DNA from: Pseudomonas farris
GTDB taxonomy: Bacteria > Pseudomonadota > Gammaproteobacteria > Pseudomonadales > Pseudomonadaceae
Length of the DNA: 64,000 nt
Assembly (NCBI RefSeq): GCF_019145235.1
Contig: NZ_JAHSTV010000006.1
Location: 1 to 64,000 of the forward strand
Direction: 5' to 3'
How positions within the stretch are numbered: the stretch's first letter is position 1; each line of letters begins with the position of its first letter. The notes under the pieces are model-generated. The model did not search any database and had not been told where the DNA came from. It was given only the letters and a program-made list of their open reading frames with translations. A program made the position numbers and the translations under genes. Shown here piece by piece: positions 29,657 to 43,507 of the stretch.

Positions 29657-30289
29657 ATGCTCCAACAATTTCTGCATGACTTCGGCTATTTTGCCCTTTT
29701 TCTCGGCACGTTTTTCGAAGGCGAAACCATTCTGGTGCTCGCAGGCTTCCTCGCGTTCCGCGGATACATGGACATCAACCTGGTGGTGGTCGTGGCGTTC
29801 TTCGGCAGTTATGCCGGCGATCAGCTGTGGTACTTCCTGGGGCGCAAGCACGGGCGCAAATTGCTGGCCCGCAAACCGCGCTGGCAACTGATGGGCGATC
29901 GGGCGCTGGAACATATTCGCAAGCACCCGGACATCTGGGTGCTGAGCTTCCGTTTTGTCTACGGGTTGCGCACCGTAATGCCGGTGGCGATCGGTCTGTC
30001 GGGCTATCCGCCGGGACGTTACCTGCTGCTCAACGGGATTGGCGCAGCGATCTGGGCCACTGCGCTGGCCGCAGCCTCTTACCACTTCGGCGCGGTACTC
30101 GAAGGCATGCTTGGCAGTATCAAGAAGTACGAGCTATGGGTGCTGGGCGCCCTGCTGGTACTGGGCTTTGGCCTGTGGCTGCGGCGGCGCTTCAAGAATG
30201 CCCGTCTGGCGAAGAAGATCTATGCCGACGAGCAAGCGTTGAAAGCCGAACAGGCCAAGTCCAGCGAACCTACGACGCCCATCGAGTGA
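29657..30289 (+). CDS. DedA family inner-membrane protein
   Basis: A 210-residue membrane protein with about five hydrophobic segments. The DedA motifs are present: LFLGTFFEGETILVLAGFLAFRG at the N-terminus, FFGSYAGDQLWYFLGRKHGR, and FRFVYGLRTVMPVAIGLSGYP with its conserved arginine and proline. DedA proteins are proposed to be lipid scramblases or proton-coupled flippases and support membrane potential. It is divergent from hemB and convergent with the membrane hydroxylase gene, overlapping that gene by 20 bases at the 3' end. Confidence 0.9.
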   Translation: MLQQFLHDFGYFALFLGTFFEGETILVLAGFLAFRGYMDINLVVVVAFFGSYAGDQLWYFLGRKHGRKLLARKPRWQLMGDRALEHIRKHPDIWVLSFRFVYGLRTVMPVAIGLSGYPPGRYLLLNGIGAAIWATALAAASYHFGAVLEGMLGSIKKYELWVLGALLVLGFGLWLRRRFKNARLAKKIYADEQALKAEQAKSSEPTTPIE

Positions 30290-31505
30290 AGCGGTTTCTA
30301 CAACAGTAGAGACCGATTGCGCTGAGCAGGCTGTAACTGAGCAGCCACACCCAGCCCACCGCGCTGCCCGGCCATAGCCCGACCATTGGCGCCAGCCACA
30401 CCAGCGGCAAGTTCGACGCCAGCCGCAACAGCTCCAGCTTCAGTGCCTGCGGGCGATTTTCCAAGGCTACGCCCAACACAAACAGCCCCAGTGCGACGGC
30501 GCCCCAGCCCAACACCAGGGCAGAAGTCGGCAGGCTCTGCTCCAGGTTCATCAAGTAACTGCCCAAGGCGATGTAGACGCAAAATTGCAGCGCCACATAC
30601 CACTGCTGGCGTCCATCCAGCCGTACCTCGAATTTGCGGAACTGGCTCAGGTCCGGTTTGTTCATCGGGTACTTGGCCGCCACATCCGCAGGCCGCCAAC
30701 CGGTGCGCATGAACCAGATCCGCAGCTTGTCCCACCCGTTTTCGGCGCGCCGGGCGTCATCCCACAGCTGCGCATAGAACTGCACGTTCGCCCATAACGG
30801 ATTCCAGCTTGCCAGTGGCGTGGTTACGCCGAAAATCACCGGTTCGTTGTCGTCCTCTTCCTGGAACGAGCCAAACAGACGGTCCCAAATAATGAACACC
30901 CCGCCGTAGTTGCGATCCATGTAGAGAGCGTTCTGTGCATGGTGAGCCCGATGATTGGACGGCGTGACGAAGAACCATTCGAACCAGCCGAGCTTGGGAA
31001 TGTGCCGGGTATGCACCCAGAATTGGTACAGAAGATTCAGCGCCGCAACGCTGACGAACACCACCAGCGGCACACCGAGCACGGCCATGGGCAAGTAGAA
31101 AATCCAGCTCAGCAGAAACCCGGTGCTGGTCTGGCGCAAGGCCGTGGAGAGGTTGTAATCCTCGCTCTGATGATGCACCGAGTGGGCAGCCCAGAGGATG
31201 TTGCGTTCGTGGCCCATGCGGTGCAGCCAGTAATAGCAGAAGTCGTAGAAGACGAAGGCAAACACCCAGACCCAAACGCTGTCGGCCGACAGCTCAATCA
31301 CGGCCAGATGCTTCAGGGCGAAGGCATAAGTCACCAGGCCGACGCCTTTGGTCAACAGGCCCGTGGTAGTCGACAGCACACCAGTGCTGACGCTGTTGAT
31401 CGCGTCTGCCACGCGGTAATTGCTCACTCCGCGCCAACGGTCGGCCAGCAACTCGACCGCAATCAGCACAAAGAAAAACGGCACCGCATACAGAATGAAG
31501 TCCAT
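30270..31505 (-). CDS. Sterol desaturase / fatty acid hydroxylase family membrane protein
   Basis: A 411-residue integral membrane di-iron oxygenase. The histidine boxes are visible: HRMGHERN around residue 95, HSVHHQSEDYN about 10 residues later and HRAHHAQN near residue 184, separated by hydrophobic segments. About 8 to 10 hydrophobic segments in all, extending further at the C-terminus than most family members, which stop near 280 to 320 residues. Substrate is not predictable from the sequence. It is transcribed alone and overlaps the dedA 3' end. Confidence 0.85.
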   Translation of the reverse strand: MDFILYAVPFFFVLIAVELLADRWRGVSNYRVADAINSVSTGVLSTTTGLLTKGVGLVTYAFALKHLAVIELSADSVWVWVFAFVFYDFCYYWLHRMGHERNILWAAHSVHHQSEDYNLSTALRQTSTGFLLSWIFYLPMAVLGVPLVVFVSVAALNLLYQFWVHTRHIPKLGWFEWFFVTPSNHRAHHAQNALYMDRNYGGVFIIWDRLFGSFQEEDDNEPVIFGVTTPLASWNPLWANVQFYAQLWDDARRAENGWDKLRIWFMRTGWRPADVAAKYPMNKPDLSQFRKFEVRLDGRQQWYVALQFCVYIALGSYLMNLEQSLPTSALVLGWGAVALGLFVLGVALENRPQALKLELLRLASNLPLVWLAPMVGLWPGSAVGWVWLLSYSLLSAIGLYCCRNRFTRWAS

Positions 31506-31619
31506 GACGCGCCCTGATCAGAATCGTTCAGCAGAGATTAGGTGTAGCCGCGTATTAACCCTATGGCAACGAGTGACAAATTAGTGGACATTTAACGCCA
31601 TGAATCTGGAGAAAAGCCC

Positions 31620-32288
31620 ATGAGCAAAAAAATTGCAGTGATCCTTTCCGGCTGCGGCGTGTACGACGGCGCCGAGATCCACGAAAGCGTGATCACCCTG
31701 CTGCGGCTGGACCAGCGCGGCGCCCAGGTGCAGTGTTTCGCACCTAATATTGCGCAGTTGCATGTAATCAACCACCTGACCGGCGAAGAAATGCCCGAGG
31801 CGCGCAACGTGCTGGTGGAGTCGGCGCGGATCGCCCGGGGCAATATCAAGGACATTCGCGAAGCCAGCGTCGAAGACTTCGATGCGCTGATCGTTCCTGG
31901 CGGATTTGGATCGGCCAAGAACCTGTCGAACTTTGCCGTCGAAGGCGCCGGATGCAGCGTTCAGCCTGACGTCCTGGCGTTGACCGAAGCGTTCGCCGAA
32001 GCCGGCAAACCGGTGGGGCTGATCTGCATCTCGCCAGCCCTGGCGGCCAAGATTTACGGCCCGGGTGTGACCTGCACCATCGGCAACGATGCCGATACCG
32101 CCGCCGCGATGAACAAAATGGGCGCCACCCATGCCGAGTGCGCAGTGACCGACATCGTCGAAGACAAGGCGCGCAAGCTGGTGAGCACTCCGGCGTACAT
32201 GCTGGCGCAATCGATCAGCGAGGCTGCTTCCGGCATCAACAAACTGGTCGACCGCGTACTGGAACTGACCCACGAAAACGACGAGTAA
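31620..32288 (+). CDS. elbB: ElbB (DJ-1/PfpI superfamily, glyoxalase-like)
   Basis: A 222-residue cytoplasmic protein of the DJ-1/PfpI superfamily: KKIAVILSGCGVYDGAEIHE opens the fold, and LIVPGGFGSAKNLSNFA with VGLICISPALAAKIYG gives the nucleophile elbow, the cysteine sitting in GLICISPA. ElbB was linked to isoprenoid synthesis in E. coli and shown to have weak glyoxalase activity; the physiological role is unsettled. It stands alone between the membrane hydroxylase gene and a REP doublet. Confidence 0.93.
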   Translation: MSKKIAVILSGCGVYDGAEIHESVITLLRLDQRGAQVQCFAPNIAQLHVINHLTGEEMPEARNVLVESARIARGNIKDIREASVEDFDALIVPGGFGSAKNLSNFAVEGAGCSVQPDVLALTEAFAEAGKPVGLICISPALAAKIYGPGVTCTIGNDADTAAAMNKMGATHAECAVTDIVEDKARKLVSTPAYMLAQSISEAASGINKLVDRVLELTHENDE

Positions 32289-32298
32289 CACTGTTCAA

Positions 32299-32388
32299 TG
32301 TGGGAGCGGGCTTGCTCGCGAAGACTGACTGACATTCAACATTGATGTTGGCTGATATACCGCTTTCGCGAGCAAGCCCGCTCCCACA
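32299..32388. repeat. REP doublet, family 1
   Basis: TGTGGGAGCGGGCTTGCTCG and its inverse with about 45 bases between, lying between the convergent 3' ends of elbB and the YaiI-type gene. Confidence 0.9.
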
Positions 32389-32404
32389 GGGTTCAATGCA
32401 TGGC

Positions 32405-32860
32405 TTAAGACTTGCGCGACAACCGGGTAAGTATCCGGTCCAGCGCATTGGCGAACGCCTGCTTCTCGCGCTCGCCAAAGGGTGCCGGCCCCCCGCTCAT
32501 CTGACCCTGCTCACGCAGATCGGTGAACAGGTTACGCACCGCCAGTCGATCGCCCATGTTCTGCGCATCGAACTCCTTGCCCCGTGGATCCAGCGCCGCA
32601 ACGCCCTTCTTCACTAGCCGGTCCGCCAGCGGCACATCGCTGCAAATCACCAGTTCGCCTGGCACCGCGTGTTCCACGAGGTAATCGTCGGCGGCATCCG
32701 GGCCGCTAGGCACCACGATCAGCTTCACCAGGGCGAGGCCCGGTTTGATCTGCGGCTGACCGGCCACCAGCACCACTTCGAATTGGCGCTTGAGGGCGAA
32801 TTTCACCACCAGATCCTTGGCTGCCCGCGGGCAAGCGTCGGCATCGATCCACACGCGCAT
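32405..32860 (-). CDS. YaiI/YqxD family protein (UPF0178, DUF188)
   Basis: A 151-residue protein starting MRVWIDADACPRAAKDLVVK, the typical DUF188 opening with its conserved aspartates, and containing GPDAADDYLVEHAVPGELVI and CSDVPLADRLVKKGVAALDPRG. The fold is PIN-like, suggesting a metal-dependent nuclease, but no activity is established. The start at 32860 is preferred; the longer frame runs into a REP element. It is convergent with elbB. Confidence 0.92.
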   Translation of the reverse strand: MRVWIDADACPRAAKDLVVKFALKRQFEVVLVAGQPQIKPGLALVKLIVVPSGPDAADDYLVEHAVPGELVICSDVPLADRLVKKGVAALDPRGKEFDAQNMGDRLAVRNLFTDLREQGQMSGGPAPFGEREKQAFANALDRILTRLSRKS

Positions 32861-32883
32861 AGTGTTTTCCTCTTCCAAAAAAA

Positions 32884-32944
32884 TCGCGAGCAGGCTCGCT
32901 CCCACAGGTTATACGCAATCCTGTGGGAGCGAGCCTGCTCGCGA
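32884..32944. repeat. REP doublet, variant 1b
   Basis: A tight inverted pair TCGCGAGCAGGCTCGCTCCC ... GGGAGCGAGCCTGCTCGCGA. It differs from family 1 by GCTCGC/GCCTGC in place of GCCCGC/GCTTGC. Further copies of this variant lie at 58850 and 63691. Confidence 0.9.
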
Positions 32945-32965
32945 TTGTGAGCGCAGCGAATGCTT

Positions 32966-34864
32966 TTAAGAAACCGACACCCGCCGCGTCTCGGCCATCC
33001 GGCTACGGCTGTACAGCACGATGATCGCAATGATCGCCACGGCCTGGGCACTCAGCGAATACGCATCAGCGTGAATCCCCAACCAGTCGAAGTCAAAGAA
33101 CGGCACCGGTCGCGTGCCGAAGATCCCGGCTTCCTGCAACGCCTTCACACCATGGCCGGCAAACACCACCGACAACGCGCACAGCAGCCCGGCATTGATG
33201 CCGAAGAACAACGCCAGCGGCAGTTTCGCCGAGCCGCGCAAAATCACCCAAGCCAGACCAATCAGCAATACCAGCGCCGTCGCCCCGCCCGCCATGACGG
33301 CGTTGTGCCCTGCCGGCCCGGCCTGCAACCACAGGGTTTCGTAAAACAGGATCACTTCGAACAACTCGCGATACACCGAGAAGAACGCCAGGATCGCAAA
33401 CCCGAAACGCCCGCCGCCACTCACCAGGCTGCTCTTGATGTAATCCTGCCAGGCCGCTGCGTGGCGACGGTCGTGCATCCACACGCCAAGCCAGAGCACC
33501 ATGACACTGGCAAACAACGCCGTCGCGCCTTCCAGCAGTTCACGCTGGGCACCGCTGACGTCGATCACATACGCCGCCACCGCCCAGGTCGCCAGCCCGG
33601 CCAGCAGCGCCAGGCCCCAACCGATGTTGACGCTGCGCACCGCCGATTGCTGACCGGTATTGCGCAGGAACGCGAGGATCGCCGCGAGCACCAGAATCGC
33701 TTCCAGACCTTCTCGCAACAGAATCAACAGGCCGGAAATGTAGCTCAGCGACCAGCTCAAGCCATCGCTGCCGAGCAGGCCAGCGGACTCTTTCAATTTG
33801 GCCTTGGCCGCCTCCAGACGCTGCTCGGCCTGGGCCACCGGCAAGCCATCTTGCAACGATTGACGGTACGCCATCAGGGACTTCTCGGTGTCTTTGCGCA
33901 CGTTGGCGTCGACGTTGTCCAGAGAGCTTTCGACCAGCTCGAAGCCTTCCAGGTACGCCGCCACCGACAGGTCGTAGGCCTGATCGTGATCGCCGGCGCG
34001 GTAGGCTGCGATGCTCTTGTCCAACGTAGCGGCCGTGTATTCCAGCAACTGCCCCGGGCCACGCTTGACCTGCGGCGGCTGCGCTCGTTGCGCGCGGAAG
34101 GTCGCGGCCGCTTGCGGACCCTCGGCGGCCTGCACTTCGGCGGGCGTCTGACGTGCCAGATCGGCGATGTTGTAGGTTTTCCCGGATTTTGCCGCGGCCG
34201 GATCGGCGCTGAAGCTGGCGATGTAGGTCGCCAGGTCCCAACGCTGGCGATCATCGAGCTGATCGGCGAAGGCCGGCATGTCGGTGCCTTCAACGCCCAT
34301 GCCCAGCGTGTTGTAGATCGCATAGAGGCTCAGACGGTCCAGTCGCACGGCATCGCGCAGATTGGCCGGCGGTGGCGTCATGCCGACACCCGCCGGGCCG
34401 TCACCGGCGCCCGCATCGCCATGGCACACCGAGCATTGCTGGGCATACAGCGGCGCGCCGCGAGTCGGGTCCGGGGTGATGACCGGGGCCTGACTGACCT
34501 CATAGGTCACCGCCAGTTTTGCCCCCAGCTGCCGCGCCTGACGGGCAACATCCGCGCCGTCCTTGCGGGCGGCGATCGCAGCGCCAAGGCTGCTGACGCC
34601 CTGCTCCAGCTCTGCGCGTTCGGGTTTGGCCGGCAAATCGGCGATCAAGCCTTGTAATACCTTCAGGAATTCCTGCTGTTCGCGGTATTCAGACTCATCA
34701 ATGACTTTGCCCGCCTCGACCGTCGCCGGGTAATCAGCGCCAATGTAATCGAGCAAATGCAGGGCCTTGGGCGCACCTTCCGTGGTTTCGGCCAGCGCAT
34801 TGAAGCTGCAAAACGCGATCACCGGCAGCACGAGCCACGCCAGAAAACGAGAGGAGGCAATCAT
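32966..34864 (-). CDS. Cytochrome c-FTR1 iron permease fusion
   Basis: A 632-residue membrane protein combining a signal peptide (cleaved after NALA), a periplasmic heme c domain and an FTR1-type permease. The heme motif CSVCH is at residues 144 to 148 with a methionine ligand in DMPAF near 196. The iron-transport motifs REGLE (384 to 388) and RELFE (499 to 503) lie in about seven C-terminal membrane segments. FTR1/EfeU moves iron after oxidation of Fe2+; the attached cytochrome may accept those electrons, an inference. No separate EfeO or EfeB gene is adjacent. The second motif carries L where the family often has G. Confidence 0.9.
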   Translation of the reverse strand: MIASSRFLAWLVLPVIAFCSFNALAETTEGAPKALHLLDYIGADYPATVEAGKVIDESEYREQQEFLKVLQGLIADLPAKPERAELEQGVSSLGAAIAARKDGADVARQARQLGAKLAVTYEVSQAPVITPDPTRGAPLYAQQCSVCHGDAGAGDGPAGVGMTPPPANLRDAVRLDRLSLYAIYNTLGMGVEGTDMPAFADQLDDRQRWDLATYIASFSADPAAAKSGKTYNIADLARQTPAEVQAAEGPQAAATFRAQRAQPPQVKRGPGQLLEYTAATLDKSIAAYRAGDHDQAYDLSVAAYLEGFELVESSLDNVDANVRKDTEKSLMAYRQSLQDGLPVAQAEQRLEAAKAKLKESAGLLGSDGLSWSLSYISGLLILLREGLEAILVLAAILAFLRNTGQQSAVRSVNIGWGLALLAGLATWAVAAYVIDVSGAQRELLEGATALFASVMVLWLGVWMHDRRHAAAWQDYIKSSLVSGGGRFGFAILAFFSVYRELFEVILFYETLWLQAGPAGHNAVMAGGATALVLLIGLAWVILRGSAKLPLALFFGINAGLLCALSVVFAGHGVKALQEAGIFGTRPVPFFDFDWLGIHADAYSLSAQAVAIIAIIVLYSRSRMAETRRVSVS

Positions 34865-35182
34865 GAATAAATCTCAAATGGAAATACGAAGTAACACATT
34901 GTTCACTCCCAATGAGTTTCACTCAAGCTTTGTTGGTATTTCCAGCGCGAAGCGCTGAGGTACCAGGCCTGAAATAAGTAGTGGCACGTTGTGAAATCAT
35001 GTAATTAAAAAGCCATTACATAGCCAGCATCCCTGTTTATAATGCCGCGCCGTCGTTATTGCGATATGGCATTTAAGCTCCTTTTTTTATGAGGAATTGG
35101 CAGGAGGCCAACAACCCTGCCGATGGGTCCCAACAGCCCGACCAGCACGCGGCTGCTTATATTCAGGGAAGACGTACCCCTT
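34865..35182. other. Divergent regulatory gap between the iron permease and the lipoprotein operon
   Basis: 318 bases without a gene, AT-rich at 34980-35045. It holds a short inverted repeat TGAGT-TTC-ACTCA at 34913-34925 about 50 bases upstream of the iron permease start, and a good sigma-70 promoter for the plus-strand operon. I looked for a convincing Fur box and did not find one. Confidence 0.6.
35015..35043 (+). promoter_or_regulatory. Sigma-70 promoter of the lipoprotein operon
   Basis: A perfect TATAAT at 35038-35043 with ATTACA as a candidate -35 at 35015-35020 (17-base spacer). It would start transcription about 130 bases before the first start codon at 35183. Confidence 0.5.
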
Positions 35183-36577
35183 ATGGCATTCCGTGCCCCC
35201 ACCTTGATCGCGCTCAGCGCTGTCACGTTGCTTTCCGGCTGCTCGGCCTTTCGTAACTACGATTCGGAACTTGCACAAACCAACCAGCAATTGGCTTCCG
35301 GCAACGTCGACGCCGCATTGACCCTGCTGGAAAAGAACAACACCAGCAAAGACAAAGACCTGCTCTATTACTTCGAGAAAGGTGAACTGCTGCGCGCCAA
35401 AGGCGACTTGTCCGGCAGCCAGAACGCCTGGACCAGCGCCGATCAGGTGGTGGGCAAGTGGGAAGACGCGGTCAAACTCGATACCGACAAATACCTGGCT
35501 CAGTTCGGCAGTTTCCTGGTCAACGACAAGGTTCGTCGCTACGAAGGCTACGACTACGAAAAAGTCATGCTGACCACGCAGATGGCCCTCAACCTGCTGG
35601 CGGTGAATGACTTCGACGGCGCGCGCACCGCCATCAAGAAAACTCACGAGCGTGAAGCGGTGATCGCCGACCTGCGTGACAAGGAATACCTCAAGAGCGA
35701 AGAGCAAGCCGAGAAAGAAGGCGTCAAAACCCAGTACAAGGATCTTCAGGGTTACCCGGTGGCCAGCCTCGACGCGCCAGAAGTGGTCGGTTTGAAAAAC
35801 AGCTATCAGAGCGCGTTCAGCCATTACCTGGCCGGCTTCGTCTATGAAGCTCTGGGCGAGAAAGATCTGGCGGCGCCGGGTTATCGCAAAGCCGCCGAAT
35901 TGCGTCCGAACACGCCACTGCTGGAACAGGCGCTCGTGAATCTCGACAAACCGGCCAAGAACGATGACAGCGACATCCTGATCGTCGTGCAAAGCGGCCT
36001 GGCGCCGTCCCGCGATTCGATCCGCATTCCGCTGCCATTGCCGATCAGCAACAACGTGGTGATCACACCGCTGTCGTTTCCGATCATCAAGCCGGATAGC
36101 TCCACTGCCACCTTCGCCCAGATCGGCGTGGACGGTCAGCAGCTGAACCTGACGCAACTCAACAGCACCACCGCCATGTCCCGTCGTGCGCTACGTGATG
36201 ACATGCCGGGCATCATCTTGCGCACTACTGTGCGGGCGATCACCCGTGGCGTGGCGCAGAAGCAGATCAACGAAACCAACCCGCTGGCGGGTCTTGCAGT
36301 CGGTATTTCTTCAGCCGTGCTCGAAGGTGCCGATACCCGTACGTGGCGTACGTTGCCGGACAACACTCAGGTAGTGCGTCTGCGCTTGAAGAAAGGCGAA
36401 CACAGCGTCACGCTGCCGAGCGCCGTGGGCGGCTCGGTGGTCAAGGTCACCGTCGATCAGCGCTTTCAGGTCATCACTCTGCGCGCCGTGGGCAATCAAG
36501 TATTCGCCAGCGGCCTGGCTGCGCACGTGATCCCGAGCGCCAACCCGACCGCCGTGGCCAGCCTCAAACAACCTTAA
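35183..36577 (+). CDS. COG3014 family outer-membrane lipoprotein with TPR-like repeats
   Basis: A 464-residue lipoprotein: signal sequence with lipobox LLSGC at C20, then an N-terminal helical-repeat half (ALTLLEKNNTSKDKDLLYYFEKGELLRAKGD, HYLAGFVYEALGEKDLAA) and a C-terminal beta-rich half. The family is known as COG3014 and has no firm function. It begins a four-gene operon with ycfL, lpoB and an LpoB-like gene, which suggests a role in activating a penicillin-binding protein or in outer-membrane assembly. The start at 35183 directly precedes the lipoprotein signal; a longer frame lacks one. Confidence 0.82.
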   Translation: MAFRAPTLIALSAVTLLSGCSAFRNYDSELAQTNQQLASGNVDAALTLLEKNNTSKDKDLLYYFEKGELLRAKGDLSGSQNAWTSADQVVGKWEDAVKLDTDKYLAQFGSFLVNDKVRRYEGYDYEKVMLTTQMALNLLAVNDFDGARTAIKKTHEREAVIADLRDKEYLKSEEQAEKEGVKTQYKDLQGYPVASLDAPEVVGLKNSYQSAFSHYLAGFVYEALGEKDLAAPGYRKAAELRPNTPLLEQALVNLDKPAKNDDSDILIVVQSGLAPSRDSIRIPLPLPISNNVVITPLSFPIIKPDSSTATFAQIGVDGQQLNLTQLNSTTAMSRRALRDDMPGIILRTTVRAITRGVAQKQINETNPLAGLAVGISSAVLEGADTRTWRTLPDNTQVVRLRLKKGEHSVTLPSAVGGSVVKVTVDQRFQVITLRAVGNQVFASGLAAHVIPSANPTAVASLKQP

Positions 36578-36592
36578 GAACGGAGTCTTTGC

Positions 36593-36964
36593 ATGCGCTT
36601 CAAATTCATCGCTGTCGTCGCCCTCGCCTTGTTGGCCGGCTGCGCCACCCCGCCACCGCCAGAGCCAGGCAGCGCTGCCAGCAAGGTCGTGGCCATGGGC
36701 AAGCTCAAGAACATCGTGGTCGGCGCCATGCGCGTGGCCCGGGAAAACGGCTTCATGACGGTCAATGCGCAGCTGAGCAACACCAGCTACAACAACAAGA
36801 CCTTCTACTACCGTTTTGCCTGGCTCGGCCCTGAAGGTTTCCCGGTTGCCGAAGAAGAAACCTGGAAAAGCCAGATGATGTATGGCGAGCAGACCCGTTT
36901 CATTCAGGCCATTGCGCCAACCACCAAAGCCGTGGATTTCCGTCTCGAAATCAAAACGCCTTAA
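36593..36964 (+). CDS. ycfL: YcfL family lipoprotein
   Basis: A 123-residue outer-membrane-type lipoprotein, lipobox LLAGC at C17, followed by a proline-rich PPPPEPG linker and a beta-sandwich-like DUF1425 body (MTVNAQLSNTSYNNKTFYYRFAWLGPEGFPV). In E. coli ycfL is immediately upstream of lpoB, as here. It starts 15 bases after the preceding gene. No function is known; YcfL may assist the neighbouring LpoB. Confidence 0.87.
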   Translation: MRFKFIAVVALALLAGCATPPPPEPGSAASKVVAMGKLKNIVVGAMRVARENGFMTVNAQLSNTSYNNKTFYYRFAWLGPEGFPVAEEETWKSQMMYGEQTRFIQAIAPTTKAVDFRLEIKTP

Positions 36965-37001
36965 GCCCTACACCATTCGTTCAGTTCTAGAGAGCATTCC
37001 C

Positions 37002-37589
37002 ATGTTTGCACGCTTTTCGTTCATCGCCGTCATCGCCCTCCTGGCCAGCGGTTGCGCCAACACTTCGCCGACCCTGGGCAGTAAAAACATCAGCTACGGC
37101 GACACCAAGGCCGTGGAAACCGTGACCAACGAGTTCGGCTCCACCGACCTGCAGATGATCGCCGAATCCATGACGCGCTCCCTGGCCCAGTCCGGCATCC
37201 TGCAAGGCCGTCCGGTGGTTCAGGTTTACGACGTGAAGAACAAGACCAGCGAGTACATCGATACCCGGGAAATCACCACCAGCATCAAGACCCAGCTGAT
37301 GAAGACCGGCGTCGCCCGCTTCGCCAGCGACAACACTGCCATGCAAAGCCAGGTTGACCAGCTCAAACTACAAAACCAGAGCGGCCTGTACAAGAAAAGC
37401 ACCGTGGCCAAGACTGGCAACATGATCGCAGCCAAGTATCGCATCGAAGGTTCGATCAGCTCGATCGTCAAGCGCAGCAGCGATTACAAGGACGTCTTCT
37501 ACAAATTCAGCCTGCAGTTGATCGATGTAGAAAGCGGTCTGGCCGAGTGGATGGACGAAAAAGAGATTCGCAAAACCACGGAGCGTTAA
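37002..37589 (+). CDS. lpoB: Penicillin-binding protein activator LpoB
   Basis: LpoB is an outer-membrane lipoprotein that reaches through the periplasm to stimulate the peptidoglycan synthase PBP1b. The 195-residue product has a signal with lipobox ASGC at C18, then SKNISYGDTKAVETVTNEFGSTDLQ and the compact CsgG/TolB-like domain (LQGRPVVQVYDVKNKTSEYIDT; KYRIEGSISSIVKRSS; KFSLQLIDVESGLAEW). E. coli LpoB has a longer proline-rich linker, absent here, so its reach to the inner membrane would be shorter. P. aeruginosa uses a different activator (LpoP) for PBP1b, so the target here is uncertain. Confidence 0.88.
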   Translation: MFARFSFIAVIALLASGCANTSPTLGSKNISYGDTKAVETVTNEFGSTDLQMIAESMTRSLAQSGILQGRPVVQVYDVKNKTSEYIDTREITTSIKTQLMKTGVARFASDNTAMQSQVDQLKLQNQSGLYKKSTVAKTGNMIAAKYRIEGSISSIVKRSSDYKDVFYKFSLQLIDVESGLAEWMDEKEIRKTTER

Positions 37590-37592
37590 TCG

Positions 37593-38336
37593 ATGCGCAC
37601 ATGGATTGGCATGATGGCCCTGGCTTGCGCGTTCAGCGTGCAAGCGGCCCCGAAAGTCGCAGTAGCGGACCTGGCGTATCAGGAACGGGTGGAACAATAC
37701 GTCCACACTGTTTCGGCCCAGAGCAACCACAGCCAGAGCTATTACGGCGCCAGTGGTTCGTCCAGTTACGAAGAGTACGAAGCAACCAGCAGCTACATCG
37801 AGCAAGGCGAGCTGCGTAAATTCACTGGCGACATCAAGGGCGAGATTCTGCGCACCGGCATGTTCCAGCTGGTGCAGGGCACGCCTTATACAGCCTCGTC
37901 CAAAGGTGACGTGTATGACGTGATCAAGCGGATCAAGGCCGGTAGCTTCAAGGGTGCCGACTACGTGCTGTTCGGCACCGTGTCAGACATCGACTTCACC
38001 CGCGACATGAACGAACTGGCCAATACCGACAGCTATTCGGCAGTGCTGGGGCTGACGCTGGTGGCGGATTTCAGTCTGATCAACACCAAGACCTATGAGA
38101 TCACCTCGGCCTTCACGGCGATGGGCGAAGGTCAGGACACCAAACTGGTGAATGGCCGGGATATCAAGATTTCGCTGAACCGCCCACGGGTGGTACGTGA
38201 TGTGTCCAAGGCACTGGGTGAGGATGTGGCTGCGCAACTGAGCCAACAGCTCGGTGGCGGTGGCTATGAGCAGCCGGGGCAGGCGCCGCTGCGCAATAAC
38301 CTGCCGCGGGATACGGCACCGGTGATTCTGCACTGA
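37593..38336 (+). CDS. LpoB/CsgG-like secreted protein without lipobox
   Basis: A 247-residue exported protein with an AQA-type signal (MRTWIGMMALACAFSVQAAP) and no lipobox cysteine at the cleavage site, so it is likely soluble in the periplasm. The body matches the CsgG/LpoB fold: APKVAVADLAYQERV at the start, then a variable serine-rich loop with SQSYYGASGSSSYEEYEATS, then GADYVLFGTVSDIDFTRDM and LVADFSLINTKTYEITSAFTA. It starts 3 bases after lpoB. A paralogue arising from duplication is likely. The C-terminus is proline/glutamine-rich. Confidence 0.8.
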   Translation: MRTWIGMMALACAFSVQAAPKVAVADLAYQERVEQYVHTVSAQSNHSQSYYGASGSSSYEEYEATSSYIEQGELRKFTGDIKGEILRTGMFQLVQGTPYTASSKGDVYDVIKRIKAGSFKGADYVLFGTVSDIDFTRDMNELANTDSYSAVLGLTLVADFSLINTKTYEITSAFTAMGEGQDTKLVNGRDIKISLNRPRVVRDVSKALGEDVAAQLSQQLGGGGYEQPGQAPLRNNLPRDTAPVILH

Positions 38337-38346
38337 GTAGTGCTCT

Positions 38347-38460
38347 GATCATTCCCACGCTACGCGTGGGAATGCAGCAGCCAGGGACGCTCTGCGTCCC
38401 AAAGAGCCGAACGCGGAGCGTCCGTTGAGGCATTCCCACGCAGAGCATGGGAACGATCAG
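38347..38460. repeat. Composite palindromic repeat, family 2
   Basis: A second copy of the element at 3514-3620: CCCACGCTACGCGTGGG, GGGACGCTCTGCGTCCC, ACGCGGAGCGT and CCCACGCAGAGCATGGG between GATCATT and GATCAG. It lies between the convergent 3' ends of the LpoB-like gene and the LysE-family gene. Confidence 0.8.
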
Positions 38461-38498
38461 GCGACCTGTGAGGGTCGCCTTTTTTGTGCCTGAAGGTT

Positions 38499-39131
38499 TT
38501 ACACCGCGGCTTTGCGCAGGGTCGCCATAAAGGCCGCCGCGCCGATGAACAGCCCGGCAAAGGTGCGGTTCATGCGTTTTTGCTGCTTGGGTGTGCGCAG
38601 CAAACGCAGCACCTTGGCCGCCAGCCCGGTGTAGCCGGCCATGACGATCAGGTCGACACAGATCATGGTCACGCCGAGGATCAGGTACTGGGCCACCAGC
38701 GGCGCGTGGGGGTCGATAAATTGCGGCAGCACCGCGAGCATGAACACCAAGGCCTTGGGGTTGCTGACGTTGACCAGAAAACCGCGGAATACCAGCGCCA
38801 TCGGCTTGCCGATCTGCCGGATGGCAGCGTCGTCGCTCATGTCGTTGGGCAGCGCGCGCCATTGCTTGACCGCAAGATAGACCAGATAGGCCACGCCAAA
38901 CCATTTGATCGCGTAAAAGGCTGTGGCGGAGGCCGCGAGGATCGCCCCCACACCGGCAGCAACAATCGCAATCTGCAACGCCAGGCCCAGTTGCAAGCCC
39001 AATGCGTTCCAGTAACCGCGCCAGAAACCGTAGCGCAAACCGCTGGACATCGACGCAATGGCGCCGGCGCCGGGAGAAAGACTGATCACCCAGCAGGCGG
39101 CAAAAAACGCCAGCCATGTTTGAAGCACCAT
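38499..39131 (-). CDS. LysE/RhtB family amino acid exporter
   Basis: A 210-residue inner-membrane exporter with about six hydrophobic segments. It shows the RhtB signature SLSPGAGAIASMSSGLRYGFW near the N-terminus, KWFGVAYLVYLAVKQWRA, and FLVNVSNPKALVFMLAVLPQF mid-protein. Family members export lysine, arginine, homoserine or threonine; the substrate here cannot be read. It is convergent with the lipoprotein operon and stands alone. Confidence 0.88.
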   Translation of the reverse strand: MVLQTWLAFFAACWVISLSPGAGAIASMSSGLRYGFWRGYWNALGLQLGLALQIAIVAAGVGAILAASATAFYAIKWFGVAYLVYLAVKQWRALPNDMSDDAAIRQIGKPMALVFRGFLVNVSNPKALVFMLAVLPQFIDPHAPLVAQYLILGVTMICVDLIVMAGYTGLAAKVLRLLRTPKQQKRMNRTFAGLFIGAAAFMATLRKAAV

Positions 39132-39250
39132 CGCACACCTCGACTCAGACTCGTGACAGACGTCTAAGCTAATGCGCCTTTGGGCCGATGACTACCGATT
39201 TTTTGTAGGACATGGCGACTGCCGACCAGCGTTTACGGCTTGAGGCCCCC

Positions 39251-39343
39251 TTCGCGAGCAAGCCCGCTCCCACATGGGATCTCCAGTGGACACAAAATTT
39301 GTGATCCACATCAATCTAGTGTGGGAGCGGGCTTGCTCGCGAA
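39251..39343. repeat. REP doublet, family 1
   Basis: TTCGCGAGCAAGCCCGCTCC and its inverse with about 53 bases between, in the 251-base gap between the LysE-family start and the small MscS gene. Confidence 0.9.
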
Positions 39344-39382
39344 AGCGGTATATCAGGCGACATCGATGCAGGAATTCAGAGC

Positions 39383-39964
39383 CTATTTTTCAAACCCGTT
39401 CGAAGAGAACACATCAGTGCCGCGCCAGCGTCGAACCGAACGCTGAAAGAACAGGCTATTGGGCACTTGCACCATGGCGCTGCCGGTACCGAGTTCTTCG
39501 GCTTCGATCAGCGTGGTGTAGAGCAGATTGATCGCCACCACCCGGCCTTTGACGCCGGGCTTGTCGGTGGTATCCACCAATTCGACCACATCGCCGATAC
39601 GGAATGGGCCGACGGTGAAAATCAGGATCGCGCACAGCAGGTTGGACAGCACGCTCCACATGGCGAAAAACGCCACGGCGGCCACCGCAACGAAACCGGA
39701 CAACGCCGTCCAGAGCACCGTGGCCGACACGCCAAGGCGTTCGAGCACGAAGATCAGCGCGCTGCCCATGATCAGCCAGCGCAAACCGCCGCGCAGCGGC
39801 ATGAAAAACTGCGGCGGAAACGGGTAGCGCTCACCCAATCGAGTCAGGCATTTAGCGACGACACGCTGGGCGATATAGCCGGCCAGCAGGATTAGCAGGA
39901 TTTGCGCGACCAGCCAGAGCGGCTCGCCCCACCCAGCCGGCAAAGGCAGCTTGAAGGCTTCCAT
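39383..39964 (-). CDS. Small MscS family mechanosensitive channel
   Basis: A 193-residue membrane protein with an N-terminal hydrophobic segment (LWLVAQILLILLAGYIAQRV), two more hydrophobic segments and a short beta domain. The pore-helix region AALSGFVAVAAVAFFAMWSVLSNLLCAILIF and the beta motif PFRIGDVVELVDTTDKPGVKGRVVAIN are diagnostic of MscS. It lacks most of the C-terminal cytoplasmic cage of full MscS (about 286 residues in E. coli). Its ATG overlaps the preceding ABC-F gene stop (TGATG), so they are translationally coupled. It probably forms a small conductance channel. Confidence 0.82.
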   Translation of the reverse strand: MEAFKLPLPAGWGEPLWLVAQILLILLAGYIAQRVVAKCLTRLGERYPFPPQFFMPLRGGLRWLIMGSALIFVLERLGVSATVLWTALSGFVAVAAVAFFAMWSVLSNLLCAILIFTVGPFRIGDVVELVDTTDKPGVKGRVVAINLLYTTLIEAEELGTGSAMVQVPNSLFFQRSVRRWRGTDVFSSNGFEK

Positions 39965-41874
39965 CAGGACAGTGCCTCCAGCTCCGCCTGCATGCTTTCC
40001 AGCAGTTCCAGCGCTTCCATCCAGGCTTCTTCAAGTTCGGCTTCACGCACCTTCAGCTTGGCTTGTTCAGCCAGCAGATCACGCAAATCGTTCTTGCGCA
40101 TCGGCTCGTAAATGTCGCTGTCGCCGAGGCTGGTATCGATCTTCGCCAGCTTCTCGTGCAGCTTGCCCAGCTCGGCTTCAAGCTTGTCGGCCTCACGCTT
40201 GTGCGGTGCCAGTTGCTGACGCAACGCAGCAGCAGCCTGACGCTGGGCCTTCTTGTCGGTCTTGTCCGGATTGACCGGGGTATTGCTGACCGGGGCATTG
40301 CGTTGACGGTATTCGACCAGCCAACGGGCGTAGTCTTCCAGGTCGCCGTCGAATTCCTCAACCTTGCCGTCTGCCACCAGATAGAAGTTGTCAGTAGTGC
40401 TTTTGAGCAGATGGCGATCGTGTGAGACCACCAGTACCGCGCCACTGAACTCTTGCAAGGCCATGGTCAGCGCCAAGCGCATTTCCAAGTCCAGGTGGTT
40501 GGTCGGTTCGTCGAGCAGCAACAGGTTCGGTCGATCCCAAGCGATCAATGCCAGGGCCAGACGCGCCTTCTCACCGCCGGAGAAATTCAGTACCGGCTCA
40601 TCAATACGCGCGCCGCGGAAGTCGAAACCACCGAGGAAGTCGCGCAGGGTCTGCTCACGCTCGGTCGGCGCCAGGCGCTGCAAGTGCAGCAACGGGCTGG
40701 CCTTGGAGTCGAGGGAGTCGAGCTGATGCTGGGCGAAGTAGCCAACGACGGTGTTTTCACCGCGCGTCAGGCGACCGGCCAACGGCTCAAGCTCACCGGC
40801 GAGGTTTTTGATCAAGGTCGATTTACCCGCGCCGTTCGGGCCGAGCAAACCGATCCGTGCGCCGGGAGTCAGTTGCAGCTTGACCTTCTCCAGAATGGCT
40901 TTGTCGCCGTAACCCAGTCGAGCATCCGACAGATCGATCAACGGGCTGGAAATTTTCGTCGATTCGCGGAAGACGAAATCAAACGGAGAATCGACGTGCG
41001 CGGCGGACAGCTCTTCCATCCGCTCCAGCGCCTTGATCCGGCTCTGGGCCTGACGGGCCTTGGTGGCCTGGGCCTTGAAGCGGGCGATGTAGCTTTCCAT
41101 GTGCGCACGTTGCGCCTGTTGCTTCTCGTAGGCCTGTTGTTGCTGGGCCAGACGTTCGGCACGGGCGCGTTCGAAGGCGCTATAACCACCGCGATACAGG
41201 GTGATCTTGCGTTGATCGACGTGGGCTACGTGATCGACCACGGCATCGAGGAAGTCCCGATCGTGGGAAATCAGCATCAAGGTGCCGGGGTAGCTTTTAA
41301 GCCACTCTTCGAGCCAGATGATGGCGTCGAGGTCCAAGTGGTTGGTCGGTTCGTCGAGCAGCAACAGGTCCGAAGGGCACATCAAAGCCTGCGCCAGGTT
41401 CAGACGCATCCGCCAGCCACCGGAGAAATCTCCTACTTGCCGATCCATCTGCTCATTGGTGAACCCAAGGCCGGCCAGCAGCTTTCGAGCCCGAGCGTCG
41501 GCGGTGTAGCCGTCGGCGCTGTCGAGTTCCGAGTGCAGGCGGGCCTGAGCGGCACCGTCATGGGCCGCTTCGGCTGCGGCGAGGTCGCGTTGCACCTCGC
41601 GCAGGCGCAGGTCACCATCGAGCACGTAGTCGACCGCGATGCGCTCGAGCGTCTCGATTTCCTGGCGCATGTGGGCGATGCGCCAGTCGGCCGGCAGGAA
41701 GCAATCACCCGAGTCCGGGTGCAGTTCGCCCCGGATCAAGGCGAACAGGCTCGATTTTCCGGCGCCGTTGGCACCGATGAGGCCGGCTTTGTGGCCGGCG
41801 TGCAGGGTCAGCTCGGCGTCTTCTAGCAGACGTTGCGGGCCACGCTGTAAAGTCAGGTTCTGAAGTCGAATCAT
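39964..41874 (-). CDS. ABC-F family ATPase (YheS-like)
   Basis: A 636-residue soluble protein with two tandem ATPase domains and no membrane segments, of the ABC-F ribosome-acting group. Domain 1 has LIGANGAGKSSLFALIRGE, VGDFSGGWRMRLNLAQALM and LLLLDEPTNHLDLDAIIWLE; domain 2 has LLGPNGAGKSTLIKNLAGEL and LNFSGGEKARLALALI. A charged linker and a long coiled-coil C-terminus (about residues 530 to 636) match YheS. The start at 41874 (MIRLQNLTLQRG) is chosen over an upstream codon. It shares overlapping stop and start with the MscS gene. Confidence 0.92.
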   Translation of the reverse strand: MIRLQNLTLQRGPQRLLEDAELTLHAGHKAGLIGANGAGKSSLFALIRGELHPDSGDCFLPADWRIAHMRQEIETLERIAVDYVLDGDLRLREVQRDLAAAEAAHDGAAQARLHSELDSADGYTADARARKLLAGLGFTNEQMDRQVGDFSGGWRMRLNLAQALMCPSDLLLLDEPTNHLDLDAIIWLEEWLKSYPGTLMLISHDRDFLDAVVDHVAHVDQRKITLYRGGYSAFERARAERLAQQQQAYEKQQAQRAHMESYIARFKAQATKARQAQSRIKALERMEELSAAHVDSPFDFVFRESTKISSPLIDLSDARLGYGDKAILEKVKLQLTPGARIGLLGPNGAGKSTLIKNLAGELEPLAGRLTRGENTVVGYFAQHQLDSLDSKASPLLHLQRLAPTEREQTLRDFLGGFDFRGARIDEPVLNFSGGEKARLALALIAWDRPNLLLLDEPTNHLDLEMRLALTMALQEFSGAVLVVSHDRHLLKSTTDNFYLVADGKVEEFDGDLEDYARWLVEYRQRNAPVSNTPVNPDKTDKKAQRQAAAALRQQLAPHKREADKLEAELGKLHEKLAKIDTSLGDSDIYEPMRKNDLRDLLAEQAKLKVREAELEEAWMEALELLESMQAELEALS

Positions 41875-41924
41875 AATGGCGGCGGAGTCTACCAGCTTCG
41901 CTCGCAACTGGCGCGAGTAGCACT

Positions 41925-42389
41925 ATGTCCTCTGACCTGTGGAGCTTTTCCCTTGGCACTTACGCCCGTCCCGGCGTTGAAGCTGCCTGCCTGCAATTAC
42001 AGTCGGCAGGGGTGAACGTGTGCCTGCTGCTCTGTGGATTGTGGCTGGGACAGCGAGGTGTCGCCTGCAATGGGCAACGATTACAGCAACTTCGCTACGT
42101 GGCCGAGCCTTGGGACGCGGAGGTCGTGCGACCGCTACGGGCGTTGCGCAGGCAATGGAAAGCCGGCGCGGCCGAGGATGCCGAACTGAATACGTTGCGC
42201 GAACAAGTCAAAACCCTGGAACTGCAAGCTGAGCGACAGTTGTTGTTGCGACTGGAGCGGTCGGCAAAGAGATGGCCGCAGGATGAGGCGACCGATCTCT
42301 CGGCCTGGCTGGAAGGTATGGCGGGGGGCGCCGCCAACCTGGACCGCGACGCGCTGCATCAGCTGCGCGTCGCGGTAACCGGCACTTAG
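41925..42389 (+). CDS. TIGR02444 family protein (DUF2390)
   Basis: A 154-residue helical protein opening SSDLWSFSLGTYARPGVEAACLQLQ, with the LLLCGLWLGQRGVA segment and a WDAEVVRPLRALRRQWK helix that define the family. No function is established. It is divergent from the ABC-F gene (50-base gap) and its stop codon overlaps the algP stop by four bases (TTAG read on both strands). The location beside algP is conserved in Pseudomonas. Confidence 0.9.
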   Translation: MSSDLWSFSLGTYARPGVEAACLQLQSAGVNVCLLLCGLWLGQRGVACNGQRLQQLRYVAEPWDAEVVRPLRALRRQWKAGAAEDAELNTLREQVKTLELQAERQLLLRLERSAKRWPQDEATDLSAWLEGMAGGAANLDRDALHQLRVAVTGT

Positions 42390-43507
42390 GAAGCGCTGGT
42401 TGGGGTGGTGCTGATACTCGACGACGCGGCTGGCGTTGGCGCAGACGTGGTGGTCGAGGTGGTTGCTGCAGGCGCGGGCGAAGCCGAAGAAGCCGGGGCC
42501 GGAGTTGCTGGCTTGATCGCTGGCGCAGCAGTCGGTTTGGCAACGGCGACTGGCTTTTTCACGGCCGGTTTTGCTGCTGGTTTTGCAGCCGGTTTTGCAG
42601 CGGCTGGTTTTGCAGCAGTGGCTGGCTTGGCAGCGGCAGCAGGTTTCGCAGCAGCAGTTCTGGCAGCCGGTTTAGCGGAGGGTTTGGCCGCAGCTTTTGC
42701 AGCGGGTTTAGCAGCTGGCTTGGCTGCGGCGGTTTTAGCCGCGGCAGGTTTGGCGGCTGGCTTGGCAGCCGGTTTAGCGGCGGCAGTTCTAGCGGCTGGC
42801 TTGGCAGCAGATTTAGCCGCTGGTTTTGCCGCTGCGGTTTTTGCCACGGCGGGTTTGGCAGCCGTGGTTCTTGCAGCTGGTTTAGCGGCAGCTGTTTTGG
42901 CAGCAGCTGGCTTGGCGGCAGGTTTGGCAGCCGTCGTTTTAGCCGCTGGTTTTGCAGCACTGGCAGCGACTGGTTTTTTCACCGCCGGTTTTGCGGCTGG
43001 CTTGGCTGCGGCTTTCACCGGGGCTTTGGCAGCAGGCTTGGCCGGTGCTTTTGCAGCAGCTGGTTTGGCAGCGGCTTTCTTCGCAGTTGCCGCAGCTGGC
43101 TTGGCCGAACGCAGGGACAACGCCTTGCCGACAGCCTCTTGGACACGACCGACACCCTGGGCCAGTTTCAGGCTTTCTTGAGCGTCGCGTTTGAGTTGCA
43201 GGATGTAGCTGCGCGTTTCGGACTGGCGATCCTTGAGGGCATCGAGCAAGTCCTCAAGTTCTTTCACCGCATCTTTGGCCTTGGCTTGCGCCTTGGCTTT
43301 GCCGGCCGCCGCAGCGTCCTGCAATTTGGTCCGGGATTTGTGCAGTTTTTCCTGCGCTTTTCCGCGCTGCTTTTCCAACTTGGCGAGCAGTTTTTCAGCA
43401 TCAGCCATAGCTTGGGAACAAGCGTTTTCCAAATGCTCGAGCAAGCTGCCCGAGAGTTGTTGGAGTAAGTGCAACGGAGTATTTACAGGCTTCTTGGTGG
43501 CCGACAT
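42386..43507 (-). CDS. algP: AlgP, histone-like alginate regulatory protein
   Basis: A 373-residue DNA-associated protein. The first 130 residues form a predicted coiled coil (LLEHLENACSQAMADAEKLLAKLEKQR; KELEDLLDALKDRQSETRSYIL). The remainder is a long lysine/alanine/proline tail of KPAAK-type units, like histone H1 C-termini. In P. aeruginosa AlgP (AlgR3) stimulates algD and its tail varies in length by in-frame repeat changes. A strong AGGAGG site precedes the ATG at 43507. It lies beyond algQ in the alg cluster. The coding repeats are described separately. Confidence 0.93.
   Translation of the reverse strand: MSATKKPVNTPLHLLQQLSGSLLEHLENACSQAMADAEKLLAKLEKQRGKAQEKLHKSRTKLQDAAAAGKAKAQAKAKDAVKELEDLLDALKDRQSETRSYILQLKRDAQESLKLAQGVGRVQEAVGKALSLRSAKPAAATAKKAAAKPAAAKAPAKPAAKAPVKAAAKPAAKPAVKKPVAASAAKPAAKTTAAKPAAKPAAAKTAAAKPAARTTAAKPAVAKTAAAKPAAKSAAKPAARTAAAKPAAKPAAKPAAAKTAAAKPAAKPAAKAAAKPSAKPAARTAAAKPAAAAKPATAAKPAAAKPAAKPAAKPAVKKPVAVAKPTAAPAIKPATPAPASSASPAPAATTSTTTSAPTPAASSSISTTPTSAS
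42530..43090 (-). repeat. In-frame KPAA-type coding repeats in algP
   Basis: On the minus strand the segment is built from degenerate 12 to 15 base units encoding KPAA, AAKPA or TAAAKPA. The complement shows recurring GCAGCCGGTTT and GGCTTGGCAGC-like stretches. Such runs are prone to slippage and recombination, changing tail length while keeping the frame. Confidence 0.75.

Follow-up and report, generated by a model that had tools for sequence, protein, structure and literature searches.

What does an LpoB-family protein do in a bacterium that already has another activator for the same cell-wall enzyme? LpoB is known as the dedicated activator of PBP1b, and in the window analysed here, a 64,000-nucleotide stretch of Pseudomonas farris DNA (contig NZ_JAHSTV010000006.1), an lpoB-type gene lies third in a row of four envelope genes, which we call G1 to G4. 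The first-pass annotation read this set as an alternative or additional route for activating a peptidoglycan synthase, or as the makings of an outer-membrane complex.

All four genes lie on the + strand and together span positions 35183-38336, with intergenic gaps of 15, 37 and 3 bases when read directly, so the coordinates confirm the co-directional, tightly spaced arrangement first described. Lipoboxes in G1, G2 and G3 and a plain signal peptide in G4, whose cleavage site was read by eye, likewise bear out the description of three lipoproteins and one exported, non-lipidated protein. The flanks are made up of what we take to be FTR1-like, LysE-like, MscS-like and ABC-F genes. Ahead of G1 lies a putative promoter (Table 1). 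The scan that found it gave one site against a mean of 1.3 in shuffled sequence, close enough to the shuffle mean to be uninformative on its own; a TATAAT occurs no more than 220 nt upstream of G1 in all 30 named loci in which FTR1 directly adjoins G1 (locus L071, with FTR1 elsewhere, was left out), and it sits inside a conserved alignment block. Downstream, the LysE gene (38499-39131) converges on a possible terminator. Searching window positions 30000-43000 against Rfam gave only sub-threshold microRNA and snoRNA matches.

Table 1. Coordinates of the four cassette genes and of the candidate signals on either side.
Feature	Positions	Strand	Details
Putative sigma-70-like promoter	35015..35043	+	ATTACA, 17 nt, TATAAT; TATAAT at 35038-35043 conserved
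G1, TPR lipoprotein, 464 aa	35183..36577	+	Lipobox LSGC-S, Cys20; in 103/199 Pseudomonas genomes
G2, YcfL/DUF1425 lipoprotein, 123 aa	36593..36964	+	Lipobox LAGC-A; PF07233 71.3 bits (cut-off 28.3)
G3, LpoB-family lipoprotein with short linker, 195 aa	37002..37589	+	Lipobox ASGC-A
G4, exported non-lipidated protein, 247 aa	37593..38336	+	Signal peptide SVQA-APK, no lipobox Cys
Hairpin and T-run, possible terminator	38459..38485	+	Terminator-like sites 4 vs 4.8 in shuffles, no excess

The family assignments differ in strength from gene to gene. G3 passes both PF13036 (141.7 bits, cut-off 22.3) and TIGR02722 (142 bits, cut-off 110.55), the NCBI equivalog model named for the PBP1b activator. Its lipobox, ASGC with the lipid-bearing Cys, occupies residues 15-18, and the linker from that Cys to the first aligned strand, at 53 residues, is shorter than the 81 residues of E. 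coli LpoB, as originally proposed; a long proline-rich linker is a trait of E. coli LpoB and not of the Pfam family. A single-sequence search of the PDB with G3 returned no chain at E 1, and the LpoB structures matched by its profile (A4) are partly matched by construction because A4 contains E. coli LpoB. The ycfL label of G2 is upheld by a DUF1425/YcfL score above the cut-off (Table 1), and its PDB matches are 3o0l (3.2e-6) and 4gio (5.4e-4) with the single sequence, and 3o0l (8.6e-21) and 4gio (2.5e-7) with profile A3. G1, for which we adopt the first-pass label of a COG3014-type protein, matched only TPR models in the family search, each below its cut-off. Its AlphaFold2 model (pLDDT 76.2, pTM 0.80) has a TPR solenoid at residues 26-255 and a C-terminal beta domain at about 262-450; Foldseek with this model gave mostly TPR-type proteins among the best 50 of 1098 matches, and profile A5 found five weak matches in the PDB, mostly designed repeat proteins.

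G4 is probably CsgG/LpoB-like, judging from profile comparisons with a shallow alignment: hhalign gave probabilities of 89-92 against CsgG-like and LpoB profiles and no match to the LPP20 profile. Its PF13036 score (19.3 bits) is below the cut-off, and Pfam CsgG (PF03783) gave no match at E 0.1. The structure model of G4 is poor (pLDDT 40); Foldseek with it gave nothing at E 0.001, the top entries being PqiC/DUF330/LptE among unrelated proteins. We rejected a CsgG-type channel as an identity for G4, since the protein has neither a lipobox nor a CsgG match. All four genes are under purifying selection, with median dN/dS values of 0.072 for G1 (n=77), 0.128 for G2 (n=66), 0.036 for G3 (n=80) and 0.101 for G4 (n=80).

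The distribution of these genes across Pseudomonas bears directly on whether they form a unit. G1, G2 (traced by PF07233) and G4 each occur in one identical set of 103 of 199 genomes, and G3 occurs in 104, namely the same 103 and a remnant. Gene order is identical in 80 of 80 named loci, which are the best 80 of 269 relatives and hence near relatives by construction. Named loci that carry the cassette include those of P. protegens (L069 and L076) and P. chlororaphis (L035). Strict co-occurrence together with constant order argues for a genuine four-gene cassette, as first supposed, and chance clustering is rejected on the same two counts. Parsimony places 16 gain or loss changes on a 61-genome tree, whose members were hand-picked by LpoP rank (30 of the 103 cassette-bearing genomes, the window genome included, and 31 of the 96 cassette-free ones, a class that counts the scar genome G046). 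Of 18 genomes examined that lack the cassette, 17 have the flanking genes abutting; the 18 were chosen from 60 searched for the flank, 11 of which had no FTR1 match. The scar genome retains a C-terminal piece of LpoB and a short piece of G4 between the flanking genes. Two further genomes, G049 and G135, carry a cassette that has diverged throughout, with identities to the window proteins of 51-56% for G1, 66-70% for G2, 86-87% for G3 and 76-77% for G4, next to flanks of 92-98% (LysE, MscS, ABC-F) and 91% (FTR1). Across Pseudomonas species, the four genes are retained together or disappear together. A single deletion can remove adjacent genes, so joint loss alone is no proof of a single function, and G1 matches in pieces in genome G034 and a G4 match in two pieces in genome G068 show that single-gene decay or sequencing errors do occur.

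The known PBP1b activator of Pseudomonas, LpoP, is a lipoprotein with a TPR domain (PMC7267771). LpoP, identified by a match to 6w5q at 1.7e-56, is present in 199 of 199 Pseudomonas genomes, cassette-bearing or cassette-free. In the window genome the LpoP gene directly follows the gene for a UB2H-bearing PBP. The cassette therefore adds to LpoP and does not replace it: of the two routes first envisaged, the additional one stands and the alternative one falls, and a model in which LpoB replaces LpoP is rejected. The housekeeping activator of PBP1b is LpoP, not the proposed cassette complex.

A broader sample of 274 gammaproteobacterial genomes indicates what LpoB does keep company with. PF13036 matched 78 of them at 1e-4; setting aside 24 whose matches were weak or partial, among them G424, which has G1, leaves the 54 genomes counted here as LpoB-bearing. 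With kinship ignored, G1 was found in 40 of the 54 LpoB genomes and in 1 of the 220 others (Fisher P 6e-35), and UB2H in 42 of 54 against 119 of 220 (P 0.002). G1 lies near LpoB on the same strand in 48 of 55 loci, within 1 kb in 44 of them; with the Pseudomonas-based profile 14 of the 54 genomes have no G1, and with an enriched profile 7 of the 55 loci have none nearby. LPP20-family genes stand beside LpoB in 24 of the 55 loci, G1 being present too in 23 of the 24, and CsgG-like genes in 8, both counts coming from profiles that contain their own seed sequences. LPP20-family genes fill the YcfL slot in many other Gammaproteobacteria, and the set of four seen here is therefore not found everywhere. 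Among 60 class loci, E. coli HinT, YcfL, ThiK and NagZ gave no tblastn match at 1e-6, MG1655 alone representing E. coli in the comparison. Across Gammaproteobacteria, the genomic partner of LpoB is G1. This suggests that LpoB-family proteins, familiar from E. coli as helpers of a single cell-wall enzyme, usually act together with another protein.

G3 could still be an additional activator that serves a class A PBP under certain conditions, acting on PBP1b through UB2H or on PBP1a, with G1, G2 and G4 in regulatory roles. Its LpoB domain scores well above the cut-offs, a UB2H-bearing PBP is available in the window genome, and UB2H is somewhat commoner where LpoB occurs. We nevertheless regard this reading as unlikely. 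LpoP is universal in the genus; LpoB tracks G1 far more tightly than UB2H, for which no match at E 1e-6 appears in 12 of the 54 LpoB genomes (one of the 12, G257, being only 82% complete); and 37 of the 39 G1-linked LpoBs that could be measured have a short linker. Within Pseudomonas, UB2H varies independently of the cassette: it is identical at 84 of 84 residues between G135, which has the cassette, and G178, which lacks it, and no fixed difference separates the 30 cassette-bearing from the 31 cassette-free genomes. The first-pass proposal that LpoB here activates a peptidoglycan synthase is therefore not supported, and activation of PBP1b by G3 is not favoured, although these results are compatible with binding of G3 to PBP1a, PBP1b or another enzyme.

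Another reading, which we consider quite improbable, is that the cassette builds a non-flagellar ring or scaffold associated with the outer membrane from subunits of the CsgG/LpoB/LPP20 type, mechanically akin to the FlgP and FlgT rings of flagellar motors, that stiffens or spaces the outer membrane. The LPP20-family and CsgG-like neighbours of LpoB fit such a structure, two of the CsgG-like proteins scanned have a sub-threshold match to the FlgT C-terminal domain, and published work places FlgP, Lpp20 and FlgT in one fold, with FlgP and FlgT forming rings; in the H. pylori reports, HP1456 (Lpp20) and HP1454 share an operon (PMC11394524, PMC11756786). Yet the window cassette has no LPP20 gene, the G4 profile found no LPP20 match, and the published ring-forming SHS2/LPP20 fold may differ from the CsgG/LpoB fold. 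Very doubtful, finally, is a CsgG-like export or surface-display system in which the lipoproteins serve as accessories or adhesins to a channel made or gated by G4 or G3, which the CsgG-family neighbours and the adhesion effect reported for Cj0091 (PMC3100323) might recommend, but which is at odds with the missing lipobox and Pfam CsgG match of G4 and with a cassette that holds no further gene for a substrate.

We propose, with moderate confidence, that the cassette encodes a single outer-membrane-facing envelope complex centred on G1, with LpoB as a subunit, that serves the upkeep of the outer membrane and peptidoglycan. G1, a TPR protein held by its lipid anchor, would act as the scaffold and probably as the hub, on which G3 may dock through its CsgG/LpoB-fold domain. 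G2, small and Ig-like, would play an accessory part; the soluble, CsgG/LpoB-like G4 would be a further subunit and might stack on LpoB or regulate it. Such a complex could keep remodelling enzymes, for example amidases or lytic transglycosylases, close to the outer membrane or control them there, and by analogy with work on H. pylori HP0018 remodelling is its most likely role. An envelope role, as first suggested for these genes, also fits published work on the Campylobacter and Helicobacter homologues.

A tentative extension concerns ancestry. It is possible, though we would not call it probable, that LpoB ancestrally belonged, as a subunit, to an envelope complex centred on G1 (COG3014) before it was put to use with PBP1b, and that E. 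coli LpoB is derived, by loss of G1, gain of a long linker and recruitment to PBP1b. Many pseudomonads would then keep the older machine beside the unrelated activator LpoP, as a module that is removed or exchanged in one piece at a single place in the chromosome. Should G1 be the working partner of most LpoBs, annotations as PBP1b activators mislead, and the enterobacterial origin of PBP1b activation becomes testable. Pseudomonas is a good test ground because presence or absence of the entire cassette at a single site sets related species apart, with LpoP constant and UB2H hardly changing.

Systems of this kind are partly known, and what is new is how widely LpoB and G1 are linked and that the cassette is inherited as a whole. 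Within the open-licence literature we found nothing on COG3014, and no title on this cassette in Pseudomonas stood among the matches listed for LpoB with YcfL, with LPP20 or CsgG, and with Pseudomonas or operon. LpoP resembles G1 in being a lipoprotein with a TPR domain; unlike the cassette genes, it is encoded outside the cassette, after the UB2H-bearing PBP, in 199 of 199 genomes. Like the cassette, the E. coli segment hinT-ycfL-lpoB-thiK-nagZ places a YcfL gene next to an LpoB gene, each from the family found in the cassette, but neither G1 nor G4 is a neighbour, the LpoB linker is long and proline-rich, and segments common in cassette LpoBs are absent, such as the E-H/Y-I-D/N-T-type motif and the IRK/IKK tail.

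G1 is likely the counterpart of Cj0089 and HP0018, judging from gene order, size, TPR content and the published descriptions. In the portions of the H. pylori reports that we used (PMC11394524, PMC11756786), deletion of hp0018 causes hypervesiculation and less helical cells, and AmiA and MltD co-immunoprecipitate in that work; HP1457 is homologous to LpoB, and in many enterohepatic Helicobacter its homologues adjoin those of hp0018. H. pylori has a Cj0089-like TPR lipoprotein, an LpoB homologue and also Lpp20, an LPP20 flavour that recalls the second arrangement of other Gammaproteobacteria. It differs from the cassette in that HP0018 is alone in its operon, with neither YcfL nor G4 mentioned beside it in those portions. 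For Campylobacter, the account of Oakland et al. (2011, PMC3100323) describes cj0089-cj0090-cj0091 as co-transcribed with gaps of 9 and 23 nt, a three-gene operon, one gene fewer than the cassette, followed by a stem-loop after cj0091 and the hypothetical gene cj0092. The phenotype reported there is one of adherence and colonisation, with effects for cj0091 and no significant adherence effect for cj0089. That account places Cj0091 in the outer membrane and associates Cj0089 with the inner membrane, the latter a poor fit to a simple all-outer-membrane complex. PDB entry 4GIO is listed as Cj0090, which makes that protein the YcfL-fold counterpart of G2, and the Campylobacter operon resembles the cassette in running from a TPR lipoprotein through a YcfL fold to LpoB, in one order, on one strand and with short gaps.

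The four genes lie on the forward strand where the first-pass annotation had placed them, separated, as it had stated, by gaps of 15, 37 and 3 bases. TPR-like repeats in G1 score below the Pfam cut-offs, and its predicted structure, which is usable (pLDDT 76, pTM 0.80), consists of a TPR solenoid (residues 26-255) and then a beta-rich domain (262-450) with no relative among the Foldseek matches listed, mostly TPR-type proteins. In four sampled genomes (G061, G071, G073 and G130) the open frame of G1 is longer (527-556 aa) and its alignment breaks into two blocks near residue 260, which would fit an additional segment between the TPR and beta domains. G3 scores far above both curated cut-offs for LpoB. 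G4 has a sub-threshold LpoB match only; profile comparison with a shallow alignment pairs it with LpoB and CsgG-like profiles at 89-92% probability, and the quality of its predicted structure (pLDDT 40) is insufficient to confirm the fold. Purifying selection acts on each of the four genes, and the constraint on G3 (dN/dS 0.036) is on a par with that on the ABC-F gene close by (0.034).

Cassette genes and neighbouring features in the window
Feature	Position	Description
Left-flank frame	32966-34864	single 632-aa frame, CSVCH segment in its first part
TATAAT box	35038-35043	upstream of G1; conserved across named loci
G1	35183-36577	464-aa TPR lipoprotein
G2	36593-36964	123-aa lipoprotein, YcfL/DUF1425 family
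G3	37002-37589	195-aa lipoprotein, LpoB family
G4	37593-38336	247-aa exported protein, plain signal peptide
Intergenic repeat	38343-38458	3' of G4; palindromic, attcccacg...cgtgggaat

The TATAAT box is conserved in all 30 named loci, from the best 80 of 269 relatives, in which the FTR1-like gene and G1 are directly adjacent, and a hairpin with a T-run is located 3' of G4; promoter and terminator consensus scans gave hits no better than in shuffled sequence. The left-flank frame presumably joins a cytochrome-c-like part, containing the CSVCH segment, to an iron-permease-like (FTR1) half. The intergenic repeat, part of which matched a microRNA by chance in Rfam, we take to resemble Pseudomonas REP-type elements.

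Within Pseudomonas the cassette behaves as a unit. Genes G1 to G4 stand in the same order on one strand in 80/80 named loci from a G3 search, these being the best 80 of 269 relatives, a choice that by design favours close kin. Among 199 Pseudomonas genomes drawn evenly and independently of that search, G1, G2 (as PF07233) and G4 each occur in an identical set of 103, and G3 in those 103 plus genome G046, with the lists matched by eye and adjacency computed for the named loci only. Exceptions to integrity are G1 in pieces in genome G034 and G4 in two pieces in genome G068. Of these best 80, 48 have a second copy of G1 immediately 5' of the first, with 53-64% identity to window G1 (for example in the fetched loci, L004:2577-3971 and L074:2467-3882); the window has a single copy. 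In genome G011 the C-terminal part of G4 (residues 135-246) is repeated three times in tandem behind an intact G4, at a spacing of 535 bases (G011:C4:1358862-1361207).

Loss or exchange also appears to involve the whole block. Mapped onto a nucleotide tree of PBP1b and LpoP from 61 hand-picked genomes (rooted at the midpoint, with several weak nodes), presence of the cassette takes 16 changes, or 17 under losses only and 19 under gains only. Of 18 cassette-free genomes inspected, 17 have the left-hand gene (FTR1-like permease) and the right-hand gene (LysE family) separated by some 75-320 bases; in the other, G026, no right-hand neighbour was found beside FTR1. Genome G046 carries a deletion scar between FTR1 and LysE (G046:C1; L152:5987-6314), comprising a C-terminal piece of LpoB with a stop and then a 20-residue piece of G4. 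In genomes G049 and G135 a cassette divergent from that of the window (G1 51-56%, G2 66-70%, G3 86-87%, G4 76-77% identity) sits between flanking genes of higher identity (LysE, MscS and ABC-F 92-98%, FTR1 91%), which suggests that the block was swapped whole, although retention of an old cassette variant is a possible alternative.

Across Gammaproteobacteria, the genomic partner of LpoB is most often G1. A full LpoB domain, by a cut that we set and that put aside 24 genomes with weaker matches, was found in 54 of 274 gammaproteobacterial genomes; a Pseudomonas-based G1 profile matched 41, 40 of them among those 54, and UB2H, the docking domain of PBP1b for E. coli LpoB, was present in 161, including 42 of the 54. 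Association with LpoB is far stronger for G1 (Fisher P = 6e-35) than for UB2H (P = 0.002), both uncorrected for kinship. Among class loci (54 from 53 LpoB genomes, and six others), a G1 profile enriched over rounds placed G1 nearby on the same strand in 48 of 55 full-LpoB loci, 44 within 1 kb; of the genomes behind the seven remaining loci, two (G431 and G295) have G1 on another contig. Two layouts dominate: G1-YcfL-LpoB, the Pseudomonas type, to which a CsgG-like gene is sometimes added, and LPP20-LpoB-G1-LPP20-like. YcfL occurs in 16 class loci and LPP20-type genes in 24, the two together in one locus only. In L109:3564-5975 and L119 the genes between LpoB and G1 encode a CsgG-like protein and one of 470-480 aa, the latter being DUF6844 in L109; no UB2H match was found in their genomes (G247 and G386).

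The cassette had been proposed as an alternative or additional route to activating a peptidoglycan synthase or building an outer-membrane complex. As an alternative to LpoP it fails: LpoP, identified by its match to 6w5q (1.7e-56) as the gene after the UB2H-bearing PBP in the window's own genome, is present in 199/199 Pseudomonas genomes, so the cassette is neither its substitute nor dependent on its absence. Direct activation of PBP1b or PBP1a is possible, but we do not favour it. UB2H does not follow the cassette: in twelve chosen pairs of related genomes, one carrying the cassette and one lacking it, the two domains differ at 0-7 of 84 positions, and no difference is fixed between 30 carriers and 31 non-carriers; as evidence on LpoB binding this is weak, because ligand binding might leave no such trace. 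The most economical reading of the observed families, order, presence or absence, and association of these genes is an envelope complex in which G1 would be the scaffold and LpoB a docked subunit, and which would serve upkeep of outer membrane and peptidoglycan; the complex, its hub and its target enzymes are what we infer. G4 may fill the slot taken elsewhere by CsgG-like proteins, and YcfL that of LPP20-type proteins.

Comparison with E. coli MG1655, the one enterobacterium compared, bears out the claim of a shorter linker. From lipid Cys to first strand, 37 of 39 G1-linked LpoBs with a recognised Cys, that of the window included, span 46-54 residues (the exceptions being one of 61 and one fused reading frame; in ten further proteins the Cys was unrecognised), versus 81 in E. 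coli. There the order is hinT-ycfL-lpoB-thiK-nagZ, without adjoining G1 or G4, and in the alignment E. coli LpoB lacks segments that cassette LpoBs commonly have; by these features E. coli LpoB looks derived.

Campylobacter jejuni cj0089-cj0090-cj0091 has the same order of TPR lipoprotein, YcfL fold and LpoB, and the G2 profile matches 4GIO (2.5e-7), listed as Cj0090 in a review (PMC7857515). According to Oakland et al. (PMC3100323), these genes are co-transcribed, Cj0089 is inner-membrane associated and Cj0091 lies on the outer membrane; inactivation of cj0091, but not of cj0089, reduced adherence, and the cj0091 mutant had an early colonisation defect. In Helicobacter, HP0018, a likely homologue of G1 by gene order, size, TPR content and published text, is reported in PMC11394524 to cause hypervesiculation and less helical cells when deleted and to co-immunoprecipitate with AmiA and MltD; many enterohepatic species are reported there to have it in synteny with a homologue of LpoB. 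An association of G1-type with LpoB-type genes had therefore been noticed before in Helicobacter; new here are its breadth across Gammaproteobacteria, the strict unit that it forms in Pseudomonas, and how it contrasts with UB2H and LpoP.
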